From contig JAPLAT010000097.1 of NCBI GenBank assembly GCA_026393175.1, positions 1-43,247 of the forward strand: DNA of 43,247 bases. The letters are read 5' to 3'. Source of the DNA: Pseudonocardiales bacterium. Its GTDB lineage: Bacteria > Actinomycetota > Actinomycetes > Mycobacteriales > Pseudonocardiaceae. Each line of letters begins with the position of its first letter. Position 1 is the stretch's first letter. This document shows, in pieces, positions 3,330 through 41,213 of the stretch. The notes beneath the pieces were generated by a model. It made no database searches, was not told the origin of the DNA, and saw only the letters and a program-made list of their open reading frames with translations. Made by a program: the position numbers and the translations under genes.

Positions 3330-3689
3330 ATGGAGGCCGACCGGCAGCGGGGTGCGCGGCGTCGGCTGCGCGCGGGCGCTCCGCGTCGCCGGCACGTCAT
3401 GCTCCGCCTCTCGGAGGAGGAGTTCGCGCTGGTGCGCGACCGGGCCGAGTCGGCGGGCATGGCCGTGGGCGCATGGGTCGCGGAGCTCGCGCTCGGCGCG
3501 TGCCGCGGCGGCGTTCGGGCCGGCGGCGTTCCCGACCTGGTGCGGTTGCATGCCGACGTGGTCGCCGCGGGGCGGCTGGAGCCCGACGGCGAGCAGTCGG
3601 CCCGCGTGGCCGAGCTGCTCGACCGTCTCGACGACGCCATCGACGCGGCGATCACGGCCTCGGGGACGGCGGCGGGGGGTGCACCGTGA
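3330..3689 (+). CDS. MobC-like / ribbon-helix-helix mobilization accessory protein
   Basis: HVMLRLSEEEFALVRDRAESAGMAVGAWVAELAL resembles RHH/MobC; directly precedes the relaxase with 4-nt GTGA overlap. Confidence 0.65.
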   Translation: MEADRQRGARRRLRAGAPRRRHVMLRLSEEEFALVRDRAESAGMAVGAWVAELALGACRGGVRAGGVPDLVRLHADVVAAGRLEPDGEQSARVAELLDRLDDAIDAAITASGTAAGGAP

Positions 3690-5122
3690 TCACCAAGGTG
3701 GTGCACGGCTGGCGGGTCGCCGGCCTGATCGCGTACCTGATGGGGCCCGGACGCGCGCAGGAGCACATCGACCCGCGCGTGATCGCGTCGTGGGACGGTC
3801 GGGACAGGGCGTGGCAACCCGCCGCCGACGCGGACGGCGGCGGGCCGGGCGTCGGGCGGTTGATCCGGGCGCTGCGGGCACCCGCGGTCGCGGCCGGGCT
3901 CCCCGAACGCGGCGGGGAGGGCGAACGGGGCTACGTGTGGCACTGCTCGGTGCGGGTCGCCCCGGGGGATCGGGTGCTGTCGGACATCGAGTGGGCCGGG
4001 GTGGCGCGGGAGCTGCTCGACGGCGCCGGGGTGGCCGGGCGGGACGATGCCGGTGGGCCGCGGTGGGTCGCGATCCGGCACGCGGACGACCACATCCACA
4101 TCGCCGCGGTGCTGGTGCGGCAGGACACCGCGAGGCGGTTCTGGCCGTCCCACGACTACCGCCGGCTGCGCACGGCGGCCAACCGGATCGAGCGCCGGCT
4201 GGGCCTGACCCTGACGGCGTCGGCGGACGGCACGGCGGCACCGGCACCGGGCCGGGGGGAGAGCGAGAAGGCGCTGCGGGCGGGTCGCGAACCCGCTCGG
4301 GTCGAGCTGGCACGGGCGGCGCGGACCGCTGCTGTCGGTGCGAGCGACGTGGAGAGCTTCGTCGACGGGCTCCGGAAGGCCGGCTACCTGGTACGGATGC
4401 GCCGTGCCCCCTCGGGGGACCTGATCGGCTACGCCGTCGCCCGGCCCGGCGACCGGGACCGAGCCGGTGGGCCGGTGTTCTACAGCGGCAGCAAGCTGGC
4501 CCCCGACCTGTCGCTGCCGAAGCTCCTGCAGGTCTGGGCCGGACTCGAACCCGACCGGGATCTCGGGGCGGCGCGGGATGCCTGGACGGCGGCGCGGCAG
4601 CGAACCGGGCGGGCCCGGGCCGCGGTCGGCGCCGCGCGCCACGACCGGGGCCGGGTGCCGGTGGACGACGTCGCGCACGCGACGGGTCAGCTGCTGACCG
4701 CCGTGGGGGAGTGGGTGCCCGGGCTGCGGGTCGCGGCCGACCGGTTCGACCGGGCCGCCCGGACACCTCACGGTGTCCCCGCGCCCCCGACCCGGCACGG
4801 GTCCCGGCTGCGTGGCGTGGCCCGCCGGCTGGTCCGCCAGCGGCGGATGATGGCCCGGATGGGCCTGGCCGTCGGCGACGACCCGGGGCCTGCCGTGGTC
4901 GCGCTGGTCACCGCGCTCACGGCGTTGGTGCGGGAGATCGGGGCCTGGCAGAGCGAGCGGGGCCACACGCACCAGAGCTCCGCCGCGACCTCGGCCGCCG
5001 GTCACCTCGACGTCTGGCTGGCGGCCCGGGCTCGCCGGCACCCGAGCGCGCCGGAGGCGGCACCCGAGCGGGGCGAGGGCCGGCGGGGGCCGGGACGGGA
5101 CCACGTCGCGGCCCACCGGTGA
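3686..5122 (+). CDS. relaxase / mobilization nuclease
   Basis: GTG start overlapping upstream TGA; VITKVVHGWRVAGLIAYLMGPG..., HCSVRVAPGD..W, AIRHADDHIHIAAVLVRQD (HxDxxHxH-like metal motif), SHDYRRLRTAANRIERRLGL. Confidence 0.8.
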   Translation: MITKVVHGWRVAGLIAYLMGPGRAQEHIDPRVIASWDGRDRAWQPAADADGGGPGVGRLIRALRAPAVAAGLPERGGEGERGYVWHCSVRVAPGDRVLSDIEWAGVARELLDGAGVAGRDDAGGPRWVAIRHADDHIHIAAVLVRQDTARRFWPSHDYRRLRTAANRIERRLGLTLTASADGTAAPAPGRGESEKALRAGREPARVELARAARTAAVGASDVESFVDGLRKAGYLVRMRRAPSGDLIGYAVARPGDRDRAGGPVFYSGSKLAPDLSLPKLLQVWAGLEPDRDLGAARDAWTAARQRTGRARAAVGAARHDRGRVPVDDVAHATGQLLTAVGEWVPGLRVAADRFDRAARTPHGVPAPPTRHGSRLRGVARRLVRQRRMMARMGLAVGDDPGPAVVALVTALTALVREIGAWQSERGHTHQSSAATSAAGHLDVWLAARARRHPSAPEAAPERGEGRRGPGRDHVAAHR

Positions 5123-5247
5123 CCATGCGGCGTGCCACGCGGTGATCACGCTCGGCGGACAACGTCCCCGACGGGCTCCGCCGAGGAGCGCCGGCAGTCC
5201 CGGCGGGGCCACGTCCGCAGGGTGGTGGGATCAGGGGAGGCGAGCCG

Positions 5248-11007: not shown

Positions 11008-11021
11008 GACTCCTCCTGCGT

Positions 11022-14468: not shown

Positions 14469-15970
14469 CGCGCCCACCCCTCGCCGGTGTCGTGCAGGAA
14501 CCCGAGATCGATCCCGACCTCGGCGAACGGGCGGCGGTTCTGCGGCAGCAGCGCGAACACCGCACGCGGGTCGTGGTCGGTGGGGGCGAAGATCCGGTTG
14601 AGCGCCACCCCGCCGCCCTCGCCCGGGCCGGTCACCTCGGCGACCTCGGCGACGAACCGTCCGCGTCCGCCGTGGGGGAGGGTGGTGTGGCGCAGGTGCA
14701 CGACGTAGTCGATGCCTTGGGCCGCCAGGCGGGTGAGGAACCGGTCCGACCAGCCCGCGCCGGCACCCTTCATCGCGGCGGTGACCAGCCGCTCGAACGC
14801 GTCCGCCGCCGAGCCGGCGTGCAGCGTGCACATCGATCCGGGCATGCCCGCGTTCATCGCCTCCAGCATCGGCAGGGCCTCCGCGCCGCGGACCTCTCCG
14901 ACCACCACCCTGGTCACCGACAGCCGCAGCACCTGGTGCAGCAGGTCGGACAGCGTGATCTCCCCGGCCGGGCGGCCGGTCGCGGGATCGCGCTCGGTCG
15001 ACCCCGGGCGGCACTCGGCGGCGAACAGCAACGGGTGCCGGTTCGGCAGCCGGTCGAGATTGAGCTCGAACTCGGTCTCCAGCACCGCGACCCGCTCGGT
15101 GACCGGGACCTGTCGGGTGAGCGCGCGCAGCACTGTCGTCTTCCCCGCCGCCGGCATCCCCGTGACCAGGACGGACTGCCGCGCGGCGACGAGGGCGGCG
15201 AGGAAGCGGGCCAGCTTGGCCGACACCGTGCCCAGCCGGACCAGGTCGCGCAGCCCGATGTCGACCAGGCGGTGCTTGCGGATGGTCACCTCGGGACGGG
15301 CGACGACCTCCCGGATCGCGGCCAACCTCGACCCGTCGGGCAGCTGCATGTTCAGGAACGGCTGGGACGGGGAGAACGCCCGTTCGGCGCTGCCGTGGTG
15401 GGCGGCGATGTGCTGGATCTGCGCGATCAGGTCGGCGTCGGTGTCGGCCACCGGCACGTCCGCGGACCGGGTCGAGCCGTCCGACAGGCGCAGCACCGGC
15501 AGCTCGCTGCCCTGGATGTGGATGTCCTCCACCCCGGGCAGATCCAGGAGTTCCTGGATGCGGCCCAGGCCCCACAGCACGTTCTCCACGGCCCGGACCA
15601 CCGCGCGTTCCTGCGCCGCGCTCAGCTGCGGCTCACCGCCGACCGAGCGTCGCCGGGCCTCACCGTCCAGCTCCTCCTGGACCCACGACAGCAGCAGCTG
15701 GCGCTGGTCGGCCGGGGTCAGCGACCGACCCCGCAGCTCCACGCCCAGCCGCCGCACGACCGCCTCGTGCACCCGCCGGGTGACCTCGGGATCCGCCGGC
15801 ACCCGGCCGGTTGCACCGCCACGGACCGGGCCGTCGGCGTCGGAGCGCTCCGCGTCGCTCGGCGATCCGTCCGCGATCCGCCCGGCCGGGGCAGGGGTCT
15901 CCTGGACGAACGTCAGGTCCCCACCCGGTGGGCGGGCCCCGTTCATCCGCTGCGGCGTCCGACCCTTCAT
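14465..15970 (-). CDS. tadA: TadA/CpaF-family secretion ATPase
   Basis: Walker A-like VTGMPAAGKTTVLRAL, VVGEVRGAEALPMLEAMNAGMPGSMCTLHAGSAADAFERL. Confidence 0.9.
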   Translation of the reverse strand: MKGRTPQRMNGARPPGGDLTFVQETPAPAGRIADGSPSDAERSDADGPVRGGATGRVPADPEVTRRVHEAVVRRLGVELRGRSLTPADQRQLLLSWVQEELDGEARRRSVGGEPQLSAAQERAVVRAVENVLWGLGRIQELLDLPGVEDIHIQGSELPVLRLSDGSTRSADVPVADTDADLIAQIQHIAAHHGSAERAFSPSQPFLNMQLPDGSRLAAIREVVARPEVTIRKHRLVDIGLRDLVRLGTVSAKLARFLAALVAARQSVLVTGMPAAGKTTVLRALTRQVPVTERVAVLETEFELNLDRLPNRHPLLFAAECRPGSTERDPATGRPAGEITLSDLLHQVLRLSVTRVVVGEVRGAEALPMLEAMNAGMPGSMCTLHAGSAADAFERLVTAAMKGAGAGWSDRFLTRLAAQGIDYVVHLRHTTLPHGGRGRFVAEVAEVTGPGEGGGVALNRIFAPTDHDPRAVFALLPQNRRPFAEVGIDLGFLHDTGEGWAR

Positions 15971-16839
15971 GCCGCCCCCCGGCCCCGCCGGGCGACCGGC
16001 GGCGTCGTCCCGGATCCGGTCGAGCTCCCGTCGTCGCGGCTGCGGCTCTCCCCGCGCCCGTCGTCCCTGGGTCGGTCCTCCCCGCGCGGACGGACGGCGT
16101 CGGGATCGTCGGTCCCGGTGATGCGCTCGGCCAACCGGCGGGCCGAGCGCTGCAACGGGCTGCGCCCGAACCCGCGCCACGACGCGCCGCCGTCGCTCCA
16201 CACGCCGGCCGCCCGCGGGTCGTCGGGCAGTTCACCCAGCAGCGGCAGCCCGCACGCCCCTGCGACCTCCGCGGACCCGTACGGGTCGTCGGGTGCGACC
16301 ACCAGCAACGACAGCCGCGGATCGCCCGGCGGGCACCCCAGATCCCGGGACAGCAGCGACCCGACCCGGGCGGCGGACCGCACCGCCCGCAGCGACGAAC
16401 CGCAGACCAGTACGACCAGCCAGCACTCCCGCAGCAGGCCGAGCACCCCGTCTGAGGGCAGATAGCGGCCGCAGTCGGTGATCACGTCCGCGTCCCGGAC
16501 ACGGCCCAGGTCAGCCCCTAGCCGTCCCCAGGGCAGCGTGGCGGCCTGCCCCACGCACCCGAGCCCGGCCAGCACCGGCGGCGCCCACGCCGCCGGCCGG
16601 TGCACCCGCCGCGCCAACGCCTCGTCCAGGCTCACCGAACGCAGGTCGGCCACCGCTTCCACCAGGCCCGAGGACGGGGGCCACTGCCCGGCGGCGAGGC
16701 CGGCGCGGACGTCCCCGCCGAACGGGTCGGCCTCCACCACCAGTGCCGAGCGCGGCCAGACCGACGCCAGCGCGAGGGCCGAGGTCGTCACGCCCGGGCT
16801 GGCCTTGGCCGACACCATCCCGATCAACACCCGGCTCAC
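15967..16839 (-). CDS. TadZ/CpaE-like P-loop protein
   Basis: VLIGMVSAKASPGVTTSALALASVWPRSALVVEADPFGGD; directly upstream of TadA. Confidence 0.7.
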   Translation of the reverse strand: MSRVLIGMVSAKASPGVTTSALALASVWPRSALVVEADPFGGDVRAGLAAGQWPPSSGLVEAVADLRSVSLDEALARRVHRPAAWAPPVLAGLGCVGQAATLPWGRLGADLGRVRDADVITDCGRYLPSDGVLGLLRECWLVVLVCGSSLRAVRSAARVGSLLSRDLGCPPGDPRLSLLVVAPDDPYGSAEVAGACGLPLLGELPDDPRAAGVWSDGGASWRGFGRSPLQRSARRLAERITGTDDPDAVRPRGEDRPRDDGRGESRSRDDGSSTGSGTTPPVARRGRGAA

Positions 16840-17462
16840 CCCCTGCCGATCAGCACAATCACGACCCGGCCCTCCGCCGAGGCCAGCGCGAGCTCCTCGG
16901 CGTCCGCCTGGGCCACCAGCACATCGACCGTGCGGCGCGCGTTGAGGTCCGCGTCGCCCGCGGCCACGACCGCCGCCCGTCGCGGCGGCGCGCCGGCTCC
17001 GAGCACCACCAGCACCTCGTCGCCGGGCCGCAACCCGGTCGCCGGCAACCGGCCCGCCTCGACCGACAACCCGACGACCGCCTGTCCCGGCGCCGGGACC
17101 TGCTCGGTGGTCACCGAGCCCGGGGTGAGGACCTGACCGGCCCGCAACCCGTCGGACACGACCAACCCGACCACGCCGTCCACGTCCCGCCACGGCACGG
17201 TCGCCAGGCCGCTGCCCGGCGGCAGCAGCACCTCCCGGACGTCGCCGACCTGCACGACCGACCCGACCGGCAGGTCGCGGACCAGCGCGACCACACCCTC
17301 CCGGGCCACCGCCGCCCGGTAGGCGTACACCGCCAGCAACGCCCCGACCACACCCACCACCACCGCCAGCAGCACCCTCCGCGACGACCGCCGCACCGGT
17401 AGCGTCGGCACCGCCGCTGCCGGGCGACGTACGGACGGCGACGTCGCCGGGGACGCGGTCAC
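16836..17462 (-). CDS. SAF-domain protein (CpaB/RcpC-like)
   Basis: N-terminal TM, VVALVRDLPVGSVVQVGDVREVLLP...GLRAGQVLTPGSV typical of SAF domain. Confidence 0.7.
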   Translation of the reverse strand: MTASPATSPSVRRPAAAVPTLPVRRSSRRVLLAVVVGVVGALLAVYAYRAAVAREGVVALVRDLPVGSVVQVGDVREVLLPPGSGLATVPWRDVDGVVGLVVSDGLRAGQVLTPGSVTTEQVPAPGQAVVGLSVEAGRLPATGLRPGDEVLVVLGAGAPPRRAAVVAAGDADLNARRTVDVLVAQADAEELALASAEGRVVIVLIGRG

Positions 17463-19131: not shown

Positions 19132-20385
19132 TCAGCGTCGTGGTTCGCGTGCCGTGGCCGGGTCGACGAACTGGATCACGGCGTGCCGGCCGCTGGTGCG
19201 CCACCCCGCGTCCGCGGTGTCCAGCCGGTCGGCGACGGTCTCGTCGAGACCCAGGACGACGTCGGACTTGAGCGTGCGGAGCACCGCGAACGGGTTCGGG
19301 AAATAGCCGCCCGCCTGCTGGGTCGGAGTGGGCGCGGGCCAGTGGCGGTCGCCGAACACCCGGCGGTAGTTGAGGTCGCCCTTGAGGATCGTCGTCGAGC
19401 AGTTTGCGATCTCGCCTGCGAGGTCGGCGGGCATCGCCGGGAACTCGAGGGGGGCGCAGTAGAACCAGTGGGTGCGGACGCGTGCCCGGCCGGTGCGGAA
19501 TGCGTCGCGCAGGCGCCGACCGACGGACTCGGCGTGGCCGCCCGCGCGTTCGAGCCTGCGCAGGCAGGACGCGAGGTCGGCCGTGGTGGCGTCGGAGACG
19601 TAGTACGGGGTCGGCTTGAGGTGGAGCGCGACCTCGTCGGCCCACCCGCCGGCCAGGAGGTCGTCGATCAGCACCAGGTCGGCCAGCAGCTCGCGGCCGG
19701 CGTTGTCGGCGATGAAGCAGACGGTGCCGCCCCCGGCGGCGGTCAGGGCGGCGAGCAGTCCCTCCGTCTGGTCGACCAGGACGGAGTCGGGTCCGGCTGC
19801 AGCGGCGGACCCGGTCCCGTGCTGGTGGGCGGCGAAGCCGAGGTCGGCCTTGTTGCCCCAGACGGCGTCGGTGATCAGGGTGGCGGCTCGTTCGGTCCTC
19901 GGGAGCGACGGCAGGCCGTCTAGGGCTCCCAGCGCCTCGACCAGGGCCGGATCGGCCAGCTCCGCGTCCTTCTGGTGCGCGAATGGATCGAGCCAGAACC
20001 ACGGCCCCGGGCGGAAGAAGTCGACGGCGTCGAGCAGGCGGCGGTAGAAGTAACTCTCGGCCCCGAGGAACGGTGCGGCGTCCCATCTCCGTCCCACCCA
20101 GGCGGAGGTCCACGCCGACCACGCCGCCGCGTCGTGCCGGTCCGGGGGCAGGGGGAGGAGTTCCCCTGCCGTGGACTCCTCGACGAGCCGGGTGAGCGCA
20201 TCGGCCTGGCGGTGTCCGTAGGGGTGTGCGGCACGGGCGGTGTCGACCAGGACCGGGTGTCGCTCGTGCAGCACGCTCCACGCGAACGAGCGGGTGTCGG
20301 TGCTGGTCCACGCGGCCGGGCGTCGGTCGTCCCCGGCGGGGGCGTCGTCGATCGTGGGAACGAGGTGCTCCACCCGCTGCGTCAC
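19132..20385 (-). CDS. DUF89 / ARMT1-like damage-control phosphatase family protein
   Basis: DAVWGNKADLGF, CFIADNAGRELLADLVLIDDLL, TTILKGDLNYRRVFGDRHW match the ARMT1/DUF89 signature stretches; 4-nt ATGA overlap with upstream STAND gene. Confidence 0.8.
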   Translation of the reverse strand: MTQRVEHLVPTIDDAPAGDDRRPAAWTSTDTRSFAWSVLHERHPVLVDTARAAHPYGHRQADALTRLVEESTAGELLPLPPDRHDAAAWSAWTSAWVGRRWDAAPFLGAESYFYRRLLDAVDFFRPGPWFWLDPFAHQKDAELADPALVEALGALDGLPSLPRTERAATLITDAVWGNKADLGFAAHQHGTGSAAAAGPDSVLVDQTEGLLAALTAAGGGTVCFIADNAGRELLADLVLIDDLLAGGWADEVALHLKPTPYYVSDATTADLASCLRRLERAGGHAESVGRRLRDAFRTGRARVRTHWFYCAPLEFPAMPADLAGEIANCSTTILKGDLNYRRVFGDRHWPAPTPTQQAGGYFPNPFAVLRTLKSDVVLGLDETVADRLDTADAGWRTSGRHAVIQFVDPATAREPRR

Positions 20386-23300
20386 TCCTGCTCGTGCCTC
20401 ACGTCCAGCGCGACGACCCCCGCCGAGCTGCCGGCCAGCACGCTACCGGTCGACGGGTGCACCGCGGCGCACTGGAGGGAGGCGTCGACCCGGACCAGCG
20501 CGAGCTGGTGCTGTCCGTCGACGGACCACAGCCGGATCGTGCCGTCCGCGGCCGCGGACACCAACCGGTCGCCGCCGACGAACTCCAGGGCGAGGATGCG
20601 CCCCGTGTGCCCGAACAGGTGCGTCGCTGCGCCGTCGTCGTCGAGGGCGCCGACGGTGATGTCCCCCGAGCCGAGCCCCGACGCCGTGCGGGCACCCGTC
20701 CGGTCGAGCGCGACGGACCGGACCCAGCTCGTCCCCGAGGCCCGGGCGGAGACCGGCGAGCCGGTGGCGACGTCCCAGACGCGGGTGAACCCGTCCGCTC
20801 CGCCGGTGACGAGGGTGCGGCCGTCGGGCCCGAACGCGATGCTCCGGGTTCGGCCGGTGTGGGCACTGGTCCGCCAGCGCCACTCCTGCGTGCCGACGTC
20901 CCACACCGACAGCGTCCCCCGGCCCGACGCGATCGCGACCGACTCGCCCGCCGCGTCGATCGCGACCGCCCACGCTCGCCCGGCCTCGCTCGTGAGCGTG
21001 GCCGTCAGGGAACCGGCCCCGATGTCCCACATCCGCACCGCTCCGTCGCCGCCCGCGGCGACCAGGACCTGGTCGGTCGAGGCGACGGACCACACCCGTC
21101 CGGTCCCGCCCCGGAAGGACGACACCGTCCCGCCGTCCTGCGCCCGGACCACCTCCACCGTGCCGTCGTGGTGGCCCAGGAACCCCAGGTCGCCGCTCGG
21201 GCTGAACGCCGTCGACCACACCGTTCCGCGGCCGGCCGACAGCTCCAGCGGGCCGGCGGCCCACGCCTGGTCGTCCCGCAGGCGGCGGACGCCACCGTCC
21301 TCGCAGCCCAGGATCGTCTCGCCGTCGTCGACGGCGAGCGACCGGATCCAGTCGACGGTCGGGGGCAGCGCCGCCCGGACCGCGGTGCTCGCCGCGGTGA
21401 CGAGGTGGACCTCGGCGTCCTCCCCGGCGGCGGTGGCCACGCCGCCGTCCGGCGAGACGGCCACCGACCGCACCCGCTGGCCGGTCGGCGTGCGGCGCAG
21501 CAGCGTCAACGAGCTCCTCGTGGCGCTCCACAGGCACACGCTGCCGTCACCCGACCCCGACGCGAGCAGCGGCGCGTCCGCGGCGAACGCGACCGCGCGC
21601 ACCCAGTCGGTGTGCCCGCCCTCCTCGGCGAGCAGCGCGCCGGAGTCGACGTCGTACAGCTGCACCGCCTCGTCCTCGCCGCCGGTCGCCAGCAGCGTCC
21701 CCGTGGCGTCCACGGCGATCGACCACACGGGCCGCCCGGTCGTCGTGAGGTCGCGCCGCTTCGCGCGCTCCCGGACCGACCACACGACAACGGCGCCGTC
21801 CTCCCCGGCGGAGCCCAGCTCACGGCCGCCGGGGAGCGGGACCAGTGAGCGGACGCGCCTGCTGTGCCCGGCCAACGCGCCCAGCGGGGCCCCCGACGAC
21901 AGCCGCCACAGGCGGACCACGCGGTCGTCCCCCGCGGCCGCCACGAAGTCCCCGTCCGACGACACCGCGACGGCGTGGACCCATCCGTGGTTGCCCCGCA
22001 GCACCCGCACCAGCCGCCCGGAGCGGCGGTCCCAGACGCGGACCGTGCCGTCCTCGCCGCCCGACACGACCCGGTTTGCGGTGACGGCCACCGACGTGAC
22101 GGCGCCGGTGTGGCCGTCCCCGGAGTCCTCCGCGAGCCGTGACCACCGCAGGTCGAAGCCGCGGTCGGTGAAGGTCCGCAGCTCGGCGGCCCGGGCGGGA
22201 TCGAGCAGGCCGGACCGGCCGAGGGCGACCAGCATCGTCGCGGCGGTGTCGGCGGCCGGTCCCGCACCGTCCACCAGGTGGACGGCGTGCAGGAGGGTCT
22301 CGGCGACCGCGACCGCGGTCCCGCCGCGCTCCCGGACGGCCGCCAGGGCAGCGGTGTCACCGGCGAAGGCGGTCGGTCCGAAAGAGTGCAGCTTGGCGAT
22401 CAGGTACCGCGGGTTCGAGAGGAGTTCGACGACCTCCTGCTCGAAGCCCGCGTACTGGAGGTGGTGGCTGAGGTGGTGCCACAGGTAGGCGTGGGCCGGG
22501 TCGAGCTCGTGCCAGCCGCCCGCCGCGAGCGGGCGGACGGCGGTGACCAGCGATTTGTGGACGTCCTGCAGGTTCCTGCGCGACCGCGACGTCAGACAGG
22601 CCCGGAAGACGTCGTGAAGCACGAGAGTGTCGGCGGCGGCGTCGTACGCGTCGAGCAGGGACCGGTCGGCCAGGGCCCGCGCGAACTGCCGGACCCCCGT
22701 CGCGGTCCACCCGTGCTCGGCCTCCCACCACGCCGCGAGGACCGGCACGGGGATCGGCACCGCGGGAGGGAAGACCGCCAGGTCGAGGTAGCGGTCGGCG
22801 AGGCCGCTCGTCCCGCGGAGGGTGACGTTACCGTCCAGGTGACCCAGGCTGCCCATCATCACCCGGCCGATCGTGCCCTCGCGCCGTCCCGCGTCGTCGG
22901 CGTCGAACACCTCGGGGCCCTCGTCCCGCACGGCGGTCAGCGCGCGGGACAGCGCCACCGCCTCCGACGCGCCGCCGAGCAGGTCCCTGGCCACGGTGCC
23001 GGCGACCACCGACGCGAGCAGGGGCCACCCGCTGCACGCCGCCGCGAGGGCCGGCAGGCCGTCCTGACCGTCCAGCGGCATCGGACTGCTGTCGGCGATG
23101 AGCTGCGCGGTCTGGGCGTCGGTCATGGGGCCGAGGGCGATCGTGCCCGCCGTCGCCCGGCCGACGCCCACGTCGCGCGTGGTCACCAGCCGGACCGTGC
23201 GGGTGCCGCCCAGCAGGAACGGGGCGAGCGCCCTCGCCGTCCAGACGTTGTCGAGCACGAGCAGCGCGCGGTGGTCGCCCAGCGCCTCCGCGAGCCGGAA

Positions 23301-23915
23301 GCCCGCCTGGTCCACGGTGGACAGGCCCGGACGCTCCCCGCCGAGGCGCTCGCACAGGTCGCCGACCAGGTGCAGGACGCGGGCGTCGTCGCACTCCGGG
23401 CCCAGCTCGACCCAGAGCACGGAGTCGAAGGACGCGGTGATCCGGCCGTCGTGGCAGCCGCGCAGGGCCAGGGTCGTCTTGCCGAAGCCGCCCGGGCCGG
23501 TGAGCAGCACCGTCCTCGGCTGGGGCGATGCGCCCGCCGCCAGGACCGCGTCGACCAGGGCGTCCTGCTCGGCGGGGCGGGCGACGGTCCCCGCGTCGAG
23601 CGCGGGCAGCCAGGACGCCGGCCGAGCCGCCGACCCGTCGCCGCCGGACGGCCGTTCGGACAGGACCAGGGGCAGGAGCCGGCACAGCTCGCCGCCCGTG
23701 TCGAGCACGAGGTCGCACCGCTGGGCCAGCGGCTCGGTCGGCCACCGCACGGCCTTCTCCACCTTGGCGATCAGGTCGCCGCTGTGCAGGGTGAGCCGTC
23801 CCAGGTCGTCCTGCGAGTAGTTGCGGCGCAACCTCCAGTGGCGCAGCTCGGCCCCGAAGAAGGCCCGGGCCGACTCGTGCGGCCGCAGCTCACGTGCCTG
23901 GCGAGGCATCGCCAC
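20382..23915 (-). CDS. XRE-HTH / NB-ARC (STAND) NTPase / WD40-repeat protein
   Basis: HTH (ARAFFGAELRHWRLRRNYSQDDLGRLTLHSGDLIAKVEK), Walker A VLLTGPGGFGKTTLALRG, ALLVLDNVW, RLVTTRDV; about 14 C-terminal WD40-like units (e.g. VVSGGEDGTVRVWD). Confidence 0.9.
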   Translation of the reverse strand: MAMPRQARELRPHESARAFFGAELRHWRLRRNYSQDDLGRLTLHSGDLIAKVEKAVRWPTEPLAQRCDLVLDTGGELCRLLPLVLSERPSGGDGSAARPASWLPALDAGTVARPAEQDALVDAVLAAGASPQPRTVLLTGPGGFGKTTLALRGCHDGRITASFDSVLWVELGPECDDARVLHLVGDLCERLGGERPGLSTVDQAGFRLAEALGDHRALLVLDNVWTARALAPFLLGGTRTVRLVTTRDVGVGRATAGTIALGPMTDAQTAQLIADSSPMPLDGQDGLPALAAACSGWPLLASVVAGTVARDLLGGASEAVALSRALTAVRDEGPEVFDADDAGRREGTIGRVMMGSLGHLDGNVTLRGTSGLADRYLDLAVFPPAVPIPVPVLAAWWEAEHGWTATGVRQFARALADRSLLDAYDAAADTLVLHDVFRACLTSRSRRNLQDVHKSLVTAVRPLAAGGWHELDPAHAYLWHHLSHHLQYAGFEQEVVELLSNPRYLIAKLHSFGPTAFAGDTAALAAVRERGGTAVAVAETLLHAVHLVDGAGPAADTAATMLVALGRSGLLDPARAAELRTFTDRGFDLRWSRLAEDSGDGHTGAVTSVAVTANRVVSGGEDGTVRVWDRRSGRLVRVLRGNHGWVHAVAVSSDGDFVAAAGDDRVVRLWRLSSGAPLGALAGHSRRVRSLVPLPGGRELGSAGEDGAVVVWSVRERAKRRDLTTTGRPVWSIAVDATGTLLATGGEDEAVQLYDVDSGALLAEEGGHTDWVRAVAFAADAPLLASGSGDGSVCLWSATRSSLTLLRRTPTGQRVRSVAVSPDGGVATAAGEDAEVHLVTAASTAVRAALPPTVDWIRSLAVDDGETILGCEDGGVRRLRDDQAWAAGPLELSAGRGTVWSTAFSPSGDLGFLGHHDGTVEVVRAQDGGTVSSFRGGTGRVWSVASTDQVLVAAGGDGAVRMWDIGAGSLTATLTSEAGRAWAVAIDAAGESVAIASGRGTLSVWDVGTQEWRWRTSAHTGRTRSIAFGPDGRTLVTGGADGFTRVWDVATGSPVSARASGTSWVRSVALDRTGARTASGLGSGDITVGALDDDGAATHLFGHTGRILALEFVGGDRLVSAAADGTIRLWSVDGQHQLALVRVDASLQCAAVHPSTGSVLAGSSAGVVALDVRHEQE

Positions 23916-23970: not shown

Positions 23971-24072
23971 GGACGGGGGGCGTCCACGGACGTTGTGGAC
24001 AACCGGTCTGTCCGGAACACCGGCCCCTGCGGGGTGCACCGCCCGCCGCGTCTCCGGACAACTCGGCTGTCC
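23971..24072. promoter_or_regulatory. cluster of operator-like inverted repeats in a divergent promoter region
   Basis: GGACG-N5-CGTCC (23971-23985); GGACA-ACCGGTC-TGTCC (23997-24013); GGACA-ACTCGGC-TGTCC (24056-24072). Confidence 0.45.
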
Positions 24073-24155: not shown

Positions 24156-24398
24156 GTGGATCAGCGGTACGAGATCCAGGCGCGCACCGTCGAGCGGCGA
24201 GCAGGCACGGTCCTGCGCGACGAGACCCGCCTCGCGGTCGCCGAGTCGGCGGGTGCCGCGCTGGAGCTGGCGCGGGAGTTCGCCGCCGAGGGCTTCCAGG
24301 CCTGGGTGTACGCGGTGTGCGCGCAGCCGGGGCGGACCGCGCCCGTCTACCGCTCGGTCACCCACCTGCACCCCGCCACGAGGGGGCCGGCCGCATGA
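24156..24398 (+). CDS. small hypothetical protein (80 aa)
   Basis: GTG start with GAGGAGG upstream (24144-24150); ATGA overlap with next gene. Confidence 0.6.
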   Translation: MDQRYEIQARTVERRAGTVLRDETRLAVAESAGAALELAREFAAEGFQAWVYAVCAQPGRTAPVYRSVTHLHPATRGPAA

Positions 24399-24850
24399 GG
24401 ACGTTCGGTCGTGCCCTCGGGCTCGGCACCCCGGCCGCCGACCCGCCGGGCCCCCGCTACCGCGGGCGGGTCCGGGTGGCGTTCCCCGCGCTCCTGACAC
24501 TGCACCGACCCACACCAGCGACCCCCGCCCCGCGGCCCCACCGGCACGACATCTCGGTGGAGTTCGTGTTCGAGGCCGCGAGCCTGGTGGAACCCGGCGT
24601 GGTCGTCGACGACGACATGCGTGACGAGATCGAGCAGCACGTCGCCACACGGCTCGCGCACCGCGACCTCAACCGGCTGTTCGACCGGCCGCCCACCTGC
24701 GAGGTCCTCGCCGAGCACCTCGCCAACTGGCACTGGTGCTCCGCCCGGCCGCCCGGTCACGCCCGGTTGGCCGCCGTCGTCGTCACCGACTCGGCCGGCG
24801 GGCACGGTGAGATCCACTTGCCCCCAGCCGTCGCTCACGGGACTACGTGA
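24395..24850 (+). CDS. PTPS/QueD-like (6-carboxytetrahydropterin synthase fold) protein, degenerate active site
   Basis: HRHDISVEFVFEAASLVEPGVVVDDDMRDEIEQHVATRLAHRDLNRLFDRPPTCEVLAEHLANWHW parallels the HGH...VVDF...LDH..LN...PT.E.LA.WIW pattern; catalytic Cys not seen. Confidence 0.6.
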   Translation: MRTFGRALGLGTPAADPPGPRYRGRVRVAFPALLTLHRPTPATPAPRPHRHDISVEFVFEAASLVEPGVVVDDDMRDEIEQHVATRLAHRDLNRLFDRPPTCEVLAEHLANWHWCSARPPGHARLAAVVVTDSAGGHGEIHLPPAVAHGTT

Positions 24851-25051: not shown

Positions 25052-26980
25052 GTGCGCGTTGATCGAATCGTCGTTGAGGGCTTTCGCTGCTTCGACGAGC
25101 GGACCGAGATCGACTTTGATCCCGACCTCACAGCGCTCGTTGGCGCGAACGGGTCCGGGAAGACGGCGGCCATGCAGGCCCTGCTCCGGGTGTTCGGTTC
25201 GACGACCGCTCAGCGGCGGCTCCGACGCGGCGACTTCCACGTCCGGCGGGGCGAGAGCGCGACCGCCGAGCGCCAGCTTGCGATCGAGGTGCACCTGTCG
25301 TTCCCGGAGCTGAGCCAGGAAGACACAGTTGCCGACTCGGGTGTTCCCGCGTTCTTCCAGCACGTCTGCGCGGACGTGGACGGCGCCCTGCGCTGTCGTG
25401 TCCGGCTGGACGCCACCTGGCAGGACAACGGCCTCGATGGCCTCATTGACTCGCGCATCGACGCGATCACGTCGTTCGAGGATGAGCCGTCGGACGACAA
25501 TCGGTTCCCGCTCCCCCCGCACGAGCGCACCTACCTCCAGGTCGTCTACGTCCCCGCGGTGCGCGACGCCATGTCCCAGGTCGGAGCGCTCATGAAGGGC
25601 CGGCTATGGAACGCGATCAAGTGGTCGGACGAGCTGAAGGGCGCACTGAAGGACGGCGGTAAGTCGCTCAGCGACGCGTTCGAGGCCGAGCAGGGAGTGG
25701 AGACGATCGTGACCGCAATGGACTCCAGGTGGAAGGAGGTGCACGCAGCCAACACCGATGCCCACCTCGGGGTCCGGGCGATCGACGTGCGGCTTGAGGA
25801 ATTTATCCGTGGGGCGTCCTTCTTCCTGCGGCCCGACGAGGAGGGACGCGAGCGGGACGTCGACGACCTGAGTGACGGTCAGCGGTCGCTCTTCTACCTC
25901 GCCCTGACCGCCGCCACCATCGACGTCGAGCAGGCCGCCTCCGACGCCCCCGACCGGTTCGAGACCGCCGATCTCCAGCTGCCGGCGCTCACGGTCGTCG
26001 CGGTCGAGGAGCCGGAAAACAACCTCTCGCCCTTCTACCTCGCCCGCATCGTCGGGCAACTGCAGGACCTCGCCGTACGGCACCGGGTGCAGGCCCTCAT
26101 CTCCAGCCACTCGGCGAGCGTCATGTCGCGGATCAGACCCGATCAGGTCCGCTACTTCCGGTGCGAGGCGGGACGGTCGGCCATCAGCCGCATCACGCTG
26201 CCCGCGGACCCCGAGGAGGAGGCCAAGTACGTGCAGGAGGCCGTGATGCGCCATCCCGAGATGTACTTCGCCAGCTTCGTGATCCTTGGCGAGGGCAGCT
26301 CCGAGCAGGCCGTGCTGCCCCGGATCGGCGATGCGCTGGGGATCCCGGTCGACCGGTCGAGCGTCGCCGTCGTGCCACTGGGTGGGCGGCACGTCCACCA
26401 CCTGTGGCGACTGCTGAATGATCTCGGGATCCCGCACGCCACCCTGCTCGACCTTGACCGCGGGCGGCACGAGGCCGGGATCGAGCGCATCAGGACCGCT
26501 GTTCGCGAGCTGACCGCCTGCCGGCCCGAGGGGGCTGTGCACGCCGGCGGCCCGTTGTCGGCGGAGTCGCTCGAAGGCGTTCAGCCCGACTCCCCAGAGC
26601 ACGACACAGTGCTGCGCGCATGGACGGAGCACCTCCGCCAGTACGGGATCTTTTTCTGCGAGCCGCTGGACTTGGATATGAGCATGCTCACCGCGTTCCC
26701 GGACGAGTACCGGCGTTTGGGGCCGGGTCAGCAGGGGCCCCGCGGGCGCGGCGATGCACAGAATACGGTCCTCGGCAGCGGCTACGAAGAGCGATCGCCA
26801 GTCACGGGACTCGACTACGGCTTCTACCGATACCTGTTCCTGGGACGGGGCAAGCCCTCGACCCACGCCCGCGCGCTGGCTGTCATTCCGGACGACCGAC
26901 TCGCCGATCATGCTCCGGACGAGATCAAAGCCCTCCTGCGCTACGTAAAGAGCAGCATCGAGCAGGTGCCTGATGCCTGA
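25052..26980 (+). CDS. gajA-like: OLD-family ATP-dependent nuclease (ABC ATPase + TOPRIM), Gabija GajA-like
   Basis: FDPDLTALVGANGSGKTAAMQALLRVFG Walker A, LSDGQRSLFYLAL signature, VVAVEEPENNLSP Walker B, TOPRIM FVILGEGSSEQAVLPRI...LLDLDRG. Confidence 0.85.
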   Translation: MRVDRIVVEGFRCFDERTEIDFDPDLTALVGANGSGKTAAMQALLRVFGSTTAQRRLRRGDFHVRRGESATAERQLAIEVHLSFPELSQEDTVADSGVPAFFQHVCADVDGALRCRVRLDATWQDNGLDGLIDSRIDAITSFEDEPSDDNRFPLPPHERTYLQVVYVPAVRDAMSQVGALMKGRLWNAIKWSDELKGALKDGGKSLSDAFEAEQGVETIVTAMDSRWKEVHAANTDAHLGVRAIDVRLEEFIRGASFFLRPDEEGRERDVDDLSDGQRSLFYLALTAATIDVEQAASDAPDRFETADLQLPALTVVAVEEPENNLSPFYLARIVGQLQDLAVRHRVQALISSHSASVMSRIRPDQVRYFRCEAGRSAISRITLPADPEEEAKYVQEAVMRHPEMYFASFVILGEGSSEQAVLPRIGDALGIPVDRSSVAVVPLGGRHVHHLWRLLNDLGIPHATLLDLDRGRHEAGIERIRTAVRELTACRPEGAVHAGGPLSAESLEGVQPDSPEHDTVLRAWTEHLRQYGIFFCEPLDLDMSMLTAFPDEYRRLGPGQQGPRGRGDAQNTVLGSGYEERSPVTGLDYGFYRYLFLGRGKPSTHARALAVIPDDRLADHAPDEIKALLRYVKSSIEQVPDA

Positions 26981-28838
26981 GCCGGCAGATGGATGGGCCC
27001 CGGTGGGCATCGACGAGCTGGAGCCCGCCGCTCTGGACGCGGTCCGCTACCGGGGCAACGCTCACGTCACGGCCGGACCCGGCGCGGGGAAGACAGAGTT
27101 CCTAGCCCAGCGCGCGGCCTACCTGCTGATGACCGGATGCTGCGCACCGCCGCAGCGTATCCTCGCCATCTCGTTCAAGCGGGACGCCGCCGACAACCTC
27201 GGCAAACGAGTCCGCACCCGCGTTGGCCCGGTCCTAGGCCGTCGCTTCGTCTCCATGACGTTTGACGCCTTCGCCAAGTCCCTGGTCGACCGCTTCCGGC
27301 TGCTTCTACCGCCCGAGCACCGACCCATCAGCGGCTACGAGTGGATCAAAGCGCCGAACGTGAGCGGCAAGGCCGTGATGGAGGCCCTCCGGGCGGGCTT
27401 ACCCGTGTCTAAGCAAGCAGGCCTCGACTTCGAGGTGAGAGTCCTGGGCCCGCACCGCCTGCGCGAGACGAACCACGATCAGGGCCCGCACGACGAGGAG
27501 ATCGCCGCCTGGTGGTCGAGCAACGATCCAGTCCGAACCGGGCAGTTGACCTTCTTCATGATCAATCGATTGGCGGAGCTCGCCCAACGATCGTCGCCGC
27601 CACTCGCCCGAGCCGTGCGAGCCACCTTCCCCTATGTGTTCGTCGACGAGTTCCAGGACACCACCTACGCTCAGTTCGATCTGCTCGAGTCGCTCTTCGC
27701 CGGATCTAACGTCGTCGTGACCGTCGTGGGGGACGAGAAGCAACGCATCATGGAGTGGGCTGGTGCCCGGCCGGACGCCTTCGCCACGTTCGCATCCTCC
27801 TTCGGTCCGACAGCCTTCACCCTCCGTCTGAATCGCCGGTCCGCCGCGGGCCTGGTGGCGTTGCAGCACGCTGTCGCCCTGAGCCTGGACCGTGCGTCGC
27901 CCGCCGTGGTGGCGTCGAGCGCGACCACGATCAGTGGCGATCACTCGTGGATCTGGCGGTTCGGTCGGCGACGGGAGGAGGCCGAGACGATCGCAACGTG
28001 GATCAGCGACGACATGAACGAGCGAGGGACAGCACCGGGCGACTACGCCCTGCTTGTCCGCCAGAAGTCGGAGCAGGCGGAGGCGGAGATCTCGGATGCG
28101 TTCGCGGAGGCCGGGCTGCAGGTGCGCAACGACAGCAAGGACGTGGTCGAGGGTGTCCCGCTCCAGGACCTGCTCGCCTCGCCCATCACGGGTGTGGTCC
28201 TGCCATTGCTGCGCCTGATGGCTGGCGCTCGTGACCCCGACGCCTGGACGACGGTCAGCGAGCACCTCGCCTGGCTCAAGGACGCCGAGGGCGCCGCTGA
28301 GCGGCGACAGATCTCGGAGAGTCTCGGCAGGCACGTCGACCTATGGAAGCACAGGATCGCGAGTCGTCACCCGACCGAACCGCTCGCCAGGGCACTCGTC
28401 GATCACGCAGTGCGCTACGCGGGAGGTCCGGCAGCCTTCCGCAACCTCCATCCCGCGTACCGCGACCTGTGGCTGCTGGACAGCACCGTCGACGCCCTCC
28501 GCGCGCACCTCGGGAGGTGCAGCGTCCCGCCTACATGGCCGGCTGTCTTCGACCGGTTCGCCGGACGTGACGCCGTATCGCTCCTGACCATCCACAAGAG
28601 CAAGGGCCTCGAGTACGACACCGTGATCCTGCTCGGGCTGGACGACAACACGTGGTGGAGCCATCACCCTGGTGATCGCGAGGGTGCGTCGACCCTGTTC
28701 GTTGCGCTCTCCCGTGCCAAGCAGCGCATGCTGTTCAGCCATGCTCACACTCGCGGTTCAACGGAGAAGGTGTCCGATCTGTACGAATTATTGATATCCG
28801 CGGGAGTCCACGAACGGCGTCGAGGGGACCGCGAATGA
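26973..28838 (+). CDS. gajB-like: UvrD/PcrA-like SF1 helicase, Gabija GajB-like
   Basis: VTAGPGAGKTEFLAQRAAYLL, YVFVDEFQDTTYAQFDLLESL, VVGDEKQRIMEWAGA, TIHKSKGLEYDTVILLGLDD; 8-nt overlap with the OLD gene. Confidence 0.88.
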   Translation: MPEPADGWAPVGIDELEPAALDAVRYRGNAHVTAGPGAGKTEFLAQRAAYLLMTGCCAPPQRILAISFKRDAADNLGKRVRTRVGPVLGRRFVSMTFDAFAKSLVDRFRLLLPPEHRPISGYEWIKAPNVSGKAVMEALRAGLPVSKQAGLDFEVRVLGPHRLRETNHDQGPHDEEIAAWWSSNDPVRTGQLTFFMINRLAELAQRSSPPLARAVRATFPYVFVDEFQDTTYAQFDLLESLFAGSNVVVTVVGDEKQRIMEWAGARPDAFATFASSFGPTAFTLRLNRRSAAGLVALQHAVALSLDRASPAVVASSATTISGDHSWIWRFGRRREEAETIATWISDDMNERGTAPGDYALLVRQKSEQAEAEISDAFAEAGLQVRNDSKDVVEGVPLQDLLASPITGVVLPLLRLMAGARDPDAWTTVSEHLAWLKDAEGAAERRQISESLGRHVDLWKHRIASRHPTEPLARALVDHAVRYAGGPAAFRNLHPAYRDLWLLDSTVDALRAHLGRCSVPPTWPAVFDRFAGRDAVSLLTIHKSKGLEYDTVILLGLDDNTWWSHHPGDREGASTLFVALSRAKQRMLFSHAHTRGSTEKVSDLYELLISAGVHERRRGDRE

Positions 28839-30809: not shown

Positions 30810-31319
30810 TCAGGTCGGGGACCGGGTGGGCAGGGTGGGCACCGGGGTGTGCGTGGTGATGGAGCGGTAGCGCTCGTTGTGAGCGCAGTCGGCGAACGGG
30901 CCGACGGGGGAGAGGAGCTCGCGCAGGCAGGGGTCGAGGTGGTCGCGGATCCAGACCGACAGCGCGGTCCCGGGCTCGGCGGCGAGTTCGGTCCAGGCGC
31001 GGAACAGGGCTTCGAAGCGGAAGACGGCCTCGGTGTGCTCCCACCAGACGGGGCACCAGGTCAACTCACCGCGCAGCGGACGGGCGACCATCGAGGTGAC
31101 GTGGCTGTGCACCCAGACGACGAGGTCGTCGATGGCGATCGTGAGGTCGAGGTGGGCGTCGTCGATCTCGCCGTCCTCGCCGCCGTCGGCGCGGCCGGGC
31201 GGGTCGGGTGCGCCGTTGAGCAGCTCGTCGAGCAGGTCGCTCTGGTAGGCGCGCCAGGCCTCGAGGGCCTCGACGCGGGCGGCGAGCTCGGCGACGAGTC
31301 GGGCTGCGGGGTCGGTCAT
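30810..31319 (-). CDS. DUF4913-like protein
   Basis: LVVWVHSHVTSMVARPLRGELTWCPVWWEHTEAVFRFEALFRAWTEL. Confidence 0.65.
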   Translation of the reverse strand: MTDPAARLVAELAARVEALEAWRAYQSDLLDELLNGAPDPPGRADGGEDGEIDDAHLDLTIAIDDLVVWVHSHVTSMVARPLRGELTWCPVWWEHTEAVFRFEALFRAWTELAAEPGTALSVWIRDHLDPCLRELLSPVGPFADCAHNERYRSITTHTPVPTLPTRSPT

Positions 31320-33178
31320 CGCGGGACTCCCGGAGTGCTGTCGGCGGGGCGGTTGACGGGGTTGTCGGGGCCGAGGGCCGCGACGGCCGAGCGCCGCAGC
31401 TCGCTCAGAGCGGTGTCGGCGTAGGCGGCGATGTCGGTGTGGTGGTGTTCGCGGTACCAGGGATGGAGCCGGCCGAGGGCGGCCTTGCGGCCGGTGGTGA
31501 GCAGGACGGCGTGGTCGCGGGTGATCGCGCGCAGGGCGGAGGCGGGCAGGATCGGTTCGCGGGCCCGGGCGTACTGCCGGGACACGCGGGTGCGGTCGAC
31601 GCTGGTGGAGACGCGTTCGACGTGGTGGTCGCCGATCAGTCCGGAGAGGCGTTGCAGGAAGGCGTGGTCGTCGACGCCGGCGCCGACGAGCTTGACGGTG
31701 GCCGCGGACCAGAGGGCCTGCATGCCCTGCTCGCCCCAGACCCCGGCGCCCTGCTGGTAGCTCTGCAGCATAGTGAGGACCTGGATGCCGCGTGAGCCGT
31801 AGTGGCTGTAGAGCTGGGGCAGGGCGCGGATGGGGCAGATGTTGGCAGCCTCGTCGAGAACGGCGACGACGGGTGGTTCGAGCCGTCCGCCTTCGGCCTG
31901 GGCGAGGAGTTCGGCGATCTCCAGGACGCGGTCGACCAGGGCGGTGACGACGGGTGCGGCGGTGCCGGCGCCCTCCTTGGACAGCAGGTGCAGGGTGGCG
32001 GGGCCGCGGCGGGCGGCGGCGAGCAGGTCCCACAGGTCCAGCTCGACGGGCCCGGCGCCGTCGGCCGGCGGGGTGCGCCAGGTGTCGGGCGGGGTGATCC
32101 AGCGCATGATCCGCTCGCTGGTCAGGGCCTTGGTGGCGGTGCGGGCGGTCTGGTAGATGCCCTTGGTGGTGACGTCGGCGCCGGTGAGGGTGGCCTCGAG
32201 GTCGGCGGCCTCGGTGGCGGCGCCGGCGTGGTCGAGGGCGGCGATGGCGCCGCGCTGGCCGGGTTGCAGCCAGTCCACGACCTGGCGCATCGACCCGCCG
32301 GAGACGGCGGCGGCGAGCAGGGTGGCGGTGAGGATCTGCTCGGCGGCGGCGTGGAAGAAGGGGTCCTTGCGCTCGCCGGCGATGGTGCCGACGAAGTGCC
32401 CGGCGAGGCGGGCGGCGGCCTCGACGCGCTCGGCGGGGTCGGCGTCGGCGATGGAGCGCAGGGGGTTCCACCACCAGTGCTGCGGGGCGTGGGCGATGCG
32501 CTGGGGGTCGAAGGTCCACACCGGCCCGGCGACGCCGCGCATGCCGGTGGTCAGCGCCCACAGGTCGGCCTTGTTGCTGGTGGCGACGGCGAGGCCGGGG
32601 GCGGCGAGGACGGTCGGCACGGCGATGGCGCTGGTCTTGTTCGACCGGGGCCCCATGACGACCAGCGCGACGTCCTCCCACGACATCGACACCGGCCGAC
32701 CGTCGACCGACAGCAGGCGCAGCCCCGCCCCATCGTCGTCGAGGTCCGCGGCGGCCGGGCGCAGCGTCCGGGCCCGGGCGAGGGCCCTCGCGCCGGTGAG
32801 GTCGCCGAGTTCGTGACGGCGCAGCAGCGACCGCCGAGGAACCCCCGGCTCGTGCAGTCGTCCGATCCCGATCGCGGCGGCGACGACTGCGGCGATCTCG
32901 ACCACCACGGTGGCGGCGAGGACGAGGTGGAACACCGGCTCGCTGGCGCCCGGGGCGAGCACCGCGCCCGGCCCGTCACGCAGCAGCACCACCACCGAGC
33001 CCGGGTCGAGGCCGCCGCCCGGGGCGGTGGACCGGGCCGGCGTCCAGTGGCCGGTGCCGACCGTGGCGGCCAGCCCGGCCGCCAGCCACACGTCGGCGAC
33101 CAGCGCGGCTGCGGCGGCCATGGCACCGAGCAGCAGCAGCGGTGCGGCTGCTCCACGCAGGGGCGCCGTGCTCGTCAC
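31316..33178 (-). CDS. VirD4/TraG-type coupling protein
   Basis: N-terminal TMs; ALVVMGPRSNKTSAIAVPTVL, ...PVVAVLDEAANICPIRALPQLYSHYGSRGIQVLTMLQSYQQG. Confidence 0.85.
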   Translation of the reverse strand: MTSTAPLRGAAAPLLLLGAMAAAAALVADVWLAAGLAATVGTGHWTPARSTAPGGGLDPGSVVVLLRDGPGAVLAPGASEPVFHLVLAATVVVEIAAVVAAAIGIGRLHEPGVPRRSLLRRHELGDLTGARALARARTLRPAAADLDDDGAGLRLLSVDGRPVSMSWEDVALVVMGPRSNKTSAIAVPTVLAAPGLAVATSNKADLWALTTGMRGVAGPVWTFDPQRIAHAPQHWWWNPLRSIADADPAERVEAAARLAGHFVGTIAGERKDPFFHAAAEQILTATLLAAAVSGGSMRQVVDWLQPGQRGAIAALDHAGAATEAADLEATLTGADVTTKGIYQTARTATKALTSERIMRWITPPDTWRTPPADGAGPVELDLWDLLAAARRGPATLHLLSKEGAGTAAPVVTALVDRVLEIAELLAQAEGGRLEPPVVAVLDEAANICPIRALPQLYSHYGSRGIQVLTMLQSYQQGAGVWGEQGMQALWSAATVKLVGAGVDDHAFLQRLSGLIGDHHVERVSTSVDRTRVSRQYARAREPILPASALRAITRDHAVLLTTGRKAALGRLHPWYREHHHTDIAAYADTALSELRRSAVAALGPDNPVNRPADSTPGVPR

Positions 33179-41125: not shown

Positions 41126-41213
41126 TGGTGTCCGAGGGGGGACTTGAACCCCCACGCCCGTTAAAGGGCACTAGCACCTCAAGCTAGCGCGTCTGCCATT
41201 CCGCCACCCGGAC
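41126..41213 (-). tRNA. tRNA-Leu (anticodon GAG), CCA encoded
   Basis: Reverse complement GTCCGGGTGGCGGAATGGCAGACGCGCTAGCTTGAGGTGCTAGTGCCC...GGGGGTTCAAGTCCCCCCTCGGACACCA; acceptor pairing GTCCGGG/CTCGGAC (one G-U), anticodon loop TTGAGGT, long variable arm. Confidence 0.95.

Follow-up and report, generated by a model that had tools for sequence, protein, structure and literature searches.

Two adjoining genes, both on the reverse strand, are described here from a 43,247-nt contig (JAPLAT010000097.1, positions 1 to 43,247 of the forward strand; GenBank assembly GCA_026393175.1) of Pseudonocardiales bacterium, a member of the Pseudonocardiaceae. The whole of that contig is referred to below as the window; the assembly is a draft of 712 contigs, 90% complete and 5.7% contaminated. 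The first gene encodes a STAND/NLR-like NTPase and the second a DUF89/ARMT1-like phosphatase (Table 1), and together they look like one undescribed signalling unit. Both open reading frames (ORFs) have a high G+C content at third codon positions, and they overlap by four nucleotides. In favour of the GTG start codon of the DUF89 gene, its similarity to three Pseudonocardia relatives sets in at residue 4.

By its domains and motifs, the first gene product is a STAND/NLR-like NTPase of the NB-ARC clade with C-terminal sensor repeats. Read from the sequence, it has a P-loop (GPGGFGKTT, aa 140-148), a Walker B motif (LLVLDN, aa 218-223), a TTR sensor (aa 245-247), a GxP motif (GWPLL, aa 296-300) and an MHD-like LHD (aa 433-435), and the core NB-ARC residues are invariant across seven STAND orthologs. 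No recognisable effector or toxic domain was found at the N-terminus, where an XRE-type helix-turn-helix (HTH) of the HTH_31 family is situated instead. An HTH of this type is N-terminal in 4 of 4 sampled orthologs, scoring above the Pfam cut-off in three, and the Micromonospora ortholog carries an additional EAD1 domain. The AlphaFold2 model (mean pLDDT 72.8, blades mostly 80-93) predicts 14 WD40 blades; its alignment was shallow (seven sequences), and the propeller region alone was used. The HTH was modelled with low confidence. The best fold matches of the full-length model in the Protein Data Bank (PDB) were structures of murine Apaf-1 (3shf, E=1.2e-43).

The second gene product is a subfamily III DUF89/ARMT1 phosphatase as judged from its domain, predicted fold and active-site motifs. 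The match to PF01937 scored 166.6 bits against a cut-off of 25 (E=1e-48), and the characteristic motifs begin at residues 176 (WGNKADL), 227 (DNAG), 262 (YVSD) and 335 (KGDLNYR). The catalytic key residues in the DN, VSD and GDLNYR motifs are invariant in 37 homologs, both paired with a STAND gene and solo, and D265 aligns with D291 of ARMT1, the residue altered in structure 6umr. The AlphaFold2 model (pLDDT 90.7) was matched by Foldseek to human ARMT1 (6umr, 3.4e-26) and the Schizosaccharomyces pombe protein (7t7k, 4.6e-25), with 8tkz and 5f13 also among the top structures; the DUF89 proteins of Arabidopsis (1xfi) and Pyrococcus (2g8l) scored far lower. Subfamily III DUF89 enzymes hydrolyse fructose-1-phosphate (PMC8669784).

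A preliminary description of this DNA had reported the two ORFs at these coordinates and on this strand, an HTH-P-loop-WD40 architecture for the first, about 14 WD40-like units suggestive of two 7-blade propellers, and ARMT1/DUF89 signature stretches in the second. Each of these observations is borne out by the domain matches, motifs and models described above. Its only error of observation concerned the overlap, given as ATGA, which in the sequence reads GTGA.

Conservation of the pair was assessed in a partial sample of genomes, amounting to approximately 1,550 search slots, in which some genomes were repeated, and one GTDB scan with a listing of at most 80 loci. DUF89 homologs were present in 22 of the 201 genomes of the family and in 9 of the 297 genomes of a phylum sample, and in the first 29 DUF89 neighbourhoods from those samples no STAND gene of this type adjoined DUF89. 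The DUF89 copies of three other Pseudonocardia were also solo, and a chance adjacency in the window seemed the right explanation. That explanation was overturned by the GTDB scan, made with an alignment of DUF89 proteins: among the matches listed, this HTH-NB-ARC-WD40 gene was found directly upstream of DUF89, and in the same orientation, in several Streptomycetaceae as well as in Micromonospora and Frankia. A search for the STAND protein in 396 Streptomycetaceae genomes then yielded nine matches, comprising eight full-length orthologs and one truncated copy, with a tenth match that was paralogous; a class sample provided two genomes beyond that of the window. The STAND scores are bimodal, with orthologs above 590 bits and paralogs below 390.

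It is apparent that this type of STAND gene is invariably accompanied by DUF89 in the genomes sampled. A DUF89 gene lies immediately downstream of 14 of 14 distinct orthologs, and of the truncated copy, at a gap of -4 to +34 nt. ORF calling overlooked some genes (e.g. at the locus designated L099), and the pairs were confirmed by tblastn. The 14 distinct paired genomes, a small number obtained after the removal of duplicates, span at least five families (those of Pseudonocardia, Micromonospora and Frankia, the Streptomycetaceae and one more). By comparison, DUF89 was found next to none of the nine STAND paralogs for which 4 kb or more of downstream sequence was available, the tenth being cut by a contig end (14/14 vs 0/9, Fisher p=1.2e-6). 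The DUF89-linked STAND proteins form one clade, with support of 100/100 and recovered in all bootstrap trees. Across the 14 pairs, the tree of STAND is congruent with that of DUF89 (Spearman rho 0.85, 0 of 5000 permutations, no well-supported conflict); such agreement, which is also expected from vertical descent alone, shows that the two genes have not been shuffled independently. The window's STAND protein is 42-46% identical to the other paired STANDs. Taken together, these data provide good support for a conserved STAND-DUF89 two-gene module in some actinobacteria of the soil. A search of the open literature, with the subscription literature outside its scope, returned no paper containing both ARMT1 and NB-ARC, nor ARMT1 and Streptomyces. 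At one further locus (L042), in a genome of the same family as the window, a different, non-orthologous WD40 STAND-type protein of 1210 aa (5000-8632, reverse strand) is situated two genes from DUF89 (9183-10337, forward strand) and divergent from it.

The association is one-sided. Most DUF89 copies have no STAND neighbour, and in the DUF89 tree (115 rows) the pairs are interspersed among solo copies, requiring 13 changes for 14 pairs, the same as in shuffled data; the possibility that paired DUF89s form a clade of their own was thus rejected. STAND was never found without DUF89 in the sampled genomes. Remnants of STAND genes were detected upstream of intact DUF89 genes in eight loci (L101, L106, L110, L112, L126, L151, L157 and L164) with a profile of the STAND C-terminus, scoring 21-304 bits against 4.2 bits for the best control, and the remnants were always of STAND. 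Loci L106 and L114 have DUF89 and 10 kb downstream in common at 90% identity, but not STAND, and L114 and L102 have the upstream region, STAND and DUF89 in common. These remnants and comparisons indicate that STAND has been lost repeatedly while DUF89 was retained; repeated gain of STAND beside DUF89 is disfavoured by the congruent trees and the remnants. Because DUF89 outlives the decay of STAND in these eight loci, it appears to be useful by itself rather than a toxin in need of restraint. Such a pattern would be shown by a beneficial enzyme whose controller is dispensable, or by a protector. A toxin-antitoxin arrangement with STAND as putative toxin would fit it too, and a regulator with one target fits equally well.

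DUF89 may also be movable as a single-gene unit. Genes 82-94% identical were observed in largely unrelated contexts (L101/L105, L102/L119 and L120/L121, the gene lying at about 9935-11210), and the homology stops sharply at the gene ends. Single-gene mobility is proposed because DUF89 is the only gene common to such contexts (L101/L105, L120/L121). In S. aidingensis a paired copy and a solo copy are both present.

The promoter region common to the STAND gene and a divergent operon contains two operator-like dyads, 59 bp apart, which together make a larger 22-nt inverted pair (Table 1). The dyad pattern has only two matches in the 5.5-Mb genome, both of them here, and none would be expected by chance in the window. 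The Streptomyces pairs have a different conserved promoter footprint, in which the element CAGCrGrCTGyCG is nearly repeated at a distance of 25 bp, as might be expected if both the HTH and the site that it reads have diverged. The divergent operon of the window consists of an 80-aa ORF overlapping a PTPS/QueD-like gene, directly before the Gabija genes, and may belong either with Gabija or with the STAND module; no PDB sequence match was obtained for the PTPS/QueD-like gene. Divergent biosynthesis-like operons are situated beside several other pairs, and their contents vary by lineage: methyltransferase, glycosyltransferase and His-phosphatase; kinase, AdoMet synthetase and SerRS paralog; HAD, nucleoside phosphorylase, radical SAM and tRNA synthetase; two radical SAMs; or epimerase, thymidylate-synthase-like protein and carbamoyltransferase. 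At loci L155, L200 and L201 a conserved divergent operon upstream of the pair encodes a 101-118-aa protein, radical-SAM proteins and a further uncharacterised protein; it accompanies STANDs of two lineages, so that operon and pair appear to be recombinable.

Table 1. Features of the window (strand: +, forward; -, reverse;., not oriented)
Feature	Position	Strand	Details
STAND/NLR-like gene	20382..23915	-	1177 aa; XRE-type HTH, NB-ARC, helical region, 14 WD40 blades at ~aa 586-1171
HTH_31 (N-terminal, XRE-type helix-turn-helix)	23679..23858	-	STAND aa 20-79; PF13560, 28.8 bits, cut-off 27
NB-ARC NTPase domain	22989..23528	-	STAND aa 130-309; PF00931, 58.9 bits
Two predicted 7-bladed WD40 propellers	20403..22160	-	14 blades by AlphaFold2 strand count; PF00400 and many WD40 models
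DUF89/ARMT1-like metal-dependent phosphatase, subfamily III	19132..20385	-	417 aa; PF01937, 1e-48
4-nt overlap, GTGA	20382..20385	-	TGA stop of STAND and GTG start of DUF89
Operator-like dyad 1, GGACAACCGGTCTGTCC	23997..24013	.	17 bp; promoter common to STAND and divergent operon
Operator-like dyad 2, GGACAACTCGGCTGTCC	24056..24072	.	17 bp
80-aa ORF	24156..24398	+	First gene of divergent operon
PTPS/QueD-like gene	24395..24850	+	Divergent operon; PF01242, 30.4 bits, cut-off 22.4
Gabija GajA	25052..26980	+	PADLOC 1e-212; downstream of the divergent small genes
Gabija GajB	26973..28838	+	PADLOC 3e-179
Relaxase (MobA-type) of mobile element	3686..5122	+	PF03432
Secretion-type ATPase	14465-17411		With SAF/RcpC-like neighbour
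TraG/VirD4-type conjugative coupling protein	31316..33121	-	PF12696 and PF02534
tRNA-Leu (gag)	41126-41213		Near one end of element

The window is interpreted as a conjugative element because of its relaxase, TraG/VirD4-type coupling protein, secretion-type ATPase and tRNA-Leu (gag), which is a possible integration site of the element. Its relaxase is 35-46% identical to those of four other pair loci (L102, L114, L133 and L200). Around 12 pairs, genes for DUF2637, phage integrase, relaxase, IstB, RepSA and transposase are abundant, as are those for radical-SAM, methyltransferase, tRNA-synthetase-like and histidine-phosphatase proteins. A count of mobile-element markers gave 8 of 12 paired loci against 4 of 79 solo loci (p=2e-6), a figure biased by the choice of markers from the paired loci. 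A tally of Pfam families in the flanks, which covered nine solo DUF89 loci, is a fairer check, and none of the families listed above for the 12 pairs was among the top families of those nine loci. Pairs are thus found on mobile elements more often than are solo copies, which are mostly chromosomal. No relatives were found in phage records or viral contigs, and a lone plasmid match, to a solo DUF89 gene of a cyanobacterium, had no STAND neighbour; a phage, plasmid or viral origin was rejected on these grounds. The Gabija genes (G+C content 67-68% vs about 75% around them) were not seen at the other pairs and were treated as probably a separate insertion beside the pair rather than as part of its system.

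The STAND-DUF89 pair was also compared with known systems. Like Apaf-1, the STAND protein combines a small N-terminal domain, an NB-ARC domain, a helical region and two WD40 propellers. The propellers of Apaf-1 have 7+8 blades, whereas 7+7 are predicted here; moreover, an XRE-type HTH takes the place of the Apaf-1 CARD, the partner is a phosphatase and not a protease, and the identity is only about 18%. Regulators such as MalT and AfsR/SARP likewise join a STAND ATPase to a DNA-binding domain and a sensor made of repeats, the repeats being TPR-like and the HTH of MalT being C-terminal and of the LuxR type. The STAND protein of the window shares that general plan but differs from it in its N-terminal XRE-type HTH, WD40 sensor and obligate phosphatase neighbour.

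Most of the nearest STAND paralogs have TIR_2 or DUF4062 as their N-terminal domain. Such TIR- and DUF4062-NB-ARC-WD40 proteins have homologous NB-ARC and WD40 regions (about 25-37% identity) but N-terminal NADase-type domains and no adjoining DUF89. DUF4062-NB-ARC-WD40 paralogs were observed at L210-L212, L215 and L217 (family f87, which also includes the Frankia pair), and the domain order of these bacterial proteins is the same as that of eukaryotic NWD1 and TEP1-type proteins. DUF4062 is reported to be the NADase domain of Swarozyc, an anti-phage system (PMC13174449, preprint). Conflict systems of multicellular bacteria that combine STAND NTPases with EAD adaptors resemble the pair in their NTPase, their actinobacterial distribution and the EAD1 domain of one ortholog, EAD1 being an adaptor that recruits effectors; the pair, however, lacks a caspase, peptidase or nuclease effector, and DUF89 is not mentioned in the paper on these systems (PMC7159879). 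The phosphatase shares PF01937, its fold (Foldseek, to 3e-26) and its catalytic motifs with yeast Ymr027w, human ARMT1 and S. pombe SPAC806.04c, from which it differs in its low identity (22-26%) and in being coupled to a STAND gene.

The reading proposed here, tentatively but as the most plausible of those considered, is that the STAND protein is a transcription switch, Apaf-1-like and signal-gated, by which a damage-control phosphatase is regulated, the two forming a conserved module often carried on mobile elements. The WD40 propellers would sense a ligand, and the NB-ARC domain would act as a nucleotide-gated switch, as in Apaf-1, with the N-terminal HTH in place of a killing domain. Active STAND would bind the two dyads of the divergent promoter upstream of its gene and raise the expression of the translationally coupled DUF89 and probably also of the variable divergent operon. 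DUF89 would then hydrolyse a sugar-phosphate-like or other damaged phosphometabolite, so that the cell is protected or re-set during the response. We infer the binding to the dyads, activation by that binding, the signal sensed and the substrate of the phosphatase from the features described above. A regulator and its target are favoured over a death switch and its effector because the dyads are unique to the divergent promoter and because DUF89 has repeatedly outlived STAND.

Several observations weigh against a transcription switch. The HTH and promoter of the window are too diverged for conservation of the dyads across genera to be apparent, and a divergent operon of the biosynthesis-like kind is missing from the L183-L185 lineage, so that control of such an operon is not general. 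Given the low confidence with which AlphaFold2 modelled it, the HTH could be an adaptor rather than a DNA-binder. The EAD1 domain of the Micromonospora ortholog and the NADase-type domains of the nearest paralogs suggest that direct protein contact may take the place of transcription.

An NLR-type anti-phage or self-killing system, in which an infection signal causes STAND to oligomerise and to recruit or activate DUF89, with depletion of an essential phosphometabolite (e.g. a sugar phosphate) and arrest of the cell, is possible, although not likely. The Apaf-1-like architecture and fold are in its favour, as are the TIR- and DUF4062-bearing paralogs (the latter with an NADase reported to be anti-phage; PMC13174449, preprint), the conflict-system adaptor in Micromonospora (PMC7159879), the frequent residence of pairs on mobile elements and the Gabija genes adjoining this one. 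However, an HTH occupies the effector slot and operator-like dyads lie upstream; those DUF89 relatives whose activity has been established serve in damage control, with fructose-1-phosphate as substrate, and are not toxins (PMC8669784); DUF89 frequently occurs by itself and is retained where STAND has been lost; and phage or viral relatives were not found, one solo DUF89 being on a plasmid. In the window, PADLOC returned nothing for DUF89 and matched STAND only to HEAT-ARM_XIII, through its repeats, and searches for a known defence family with NCBIfam and PADLOC gave nothing informative for the pair. Around the 12 other pairs PADLOC found almost nothing, which speaks against defence genes being generally enriched there. 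A class of NLRs whose output is the gated dephosphorylation of a specific metabolite, and not NAD+ depletion, proteolysis or DNA cleavage, with an NADase domain swapped for an HTH, an obligate phosphatase partner and immunity borne on mobile elements, is unlikely.

The preliminary description had proposed a sensor or switch paired with a phosphatase effector, to be checked by defence-island enrichment, and had counted as evidence against it an adjacency unique to this genome or a housekeeping context for DUF89. The pairing is genuine, but the HTH in the N-terminal slot and the lack of a killing domain speak against the effector. A general enrichment of defence genes is not supported, although Gabija adjoins the pair in the window. 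The adjacency is far from unique, with congruent trees in 14 distinct genomes, and a housekeeping context holds in part: most DUF89 copies are solo and chromosomal, and every STAND ortholog sampled is paired.

That DUF89 acts as a protector, removing a product or ligand that makes STAND or the product of the divergent operon harmful, in the manner of an antitoxin or of self-resistance, is distinctly unlikely. It would account for the occurrence of STAND only with DUF89, of DUF89 often without STAND, and of remnants that are always of STAND, and the divergent operons look capable of making phosphorylated metabolites. The same asymmetry would be expected, however, of a regulator with only one target; some pairs have no biosynthesis-like divergent operon, and STAND has no recognisable toxic domain.

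A role of the pair in the life of the mobile element that carries it, in which the STAND-HTH would control genes for transfer or maintenance, or the exclusion of related elements, with DUF89 in support, is very unlikely. Relaxase, DUF2637, integrase, RepSA, IstB and FtsK genes flank many pairs, and four pair loci have relaxases akin to the one in the window; such genes are not within 10 kb of every pair, however, cargo genes on mobile elements need not aid transfer, and solo DUF89 is mostly chromosomal. Finally, the view that a housekeeping phosphatase and a STAND of a type common in actinobacteria adjoin by chance, suggested by the many DUF89 copies without a STAND neighbour and the abundance of NB-ARC-WD40 genes in the family, is hardly credible in view of the pairing of orthologs but not paralogs, the congruent trees and the single STAND clade, and the 42-46% identity of the window's STAND argues against the spread of a single recent mobile element in unaltered copies.

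NLR-like proteins of bacteria are commonly seen as death switches with an attached killing domain. In the one clade described here, the Apaf-1-like chassis is retained, a DNA-binding-type domain occupies the killing slot, and the gene is found only beside a phosphatase of the metabolite-repair type. If the coupling is functional, it would join sensing of the innate-immunity type to metabolite damage control and would provide DUF89 enzymes with a dedicated regulator, in a two-gene system in which both the signal and the substrate could be tested.

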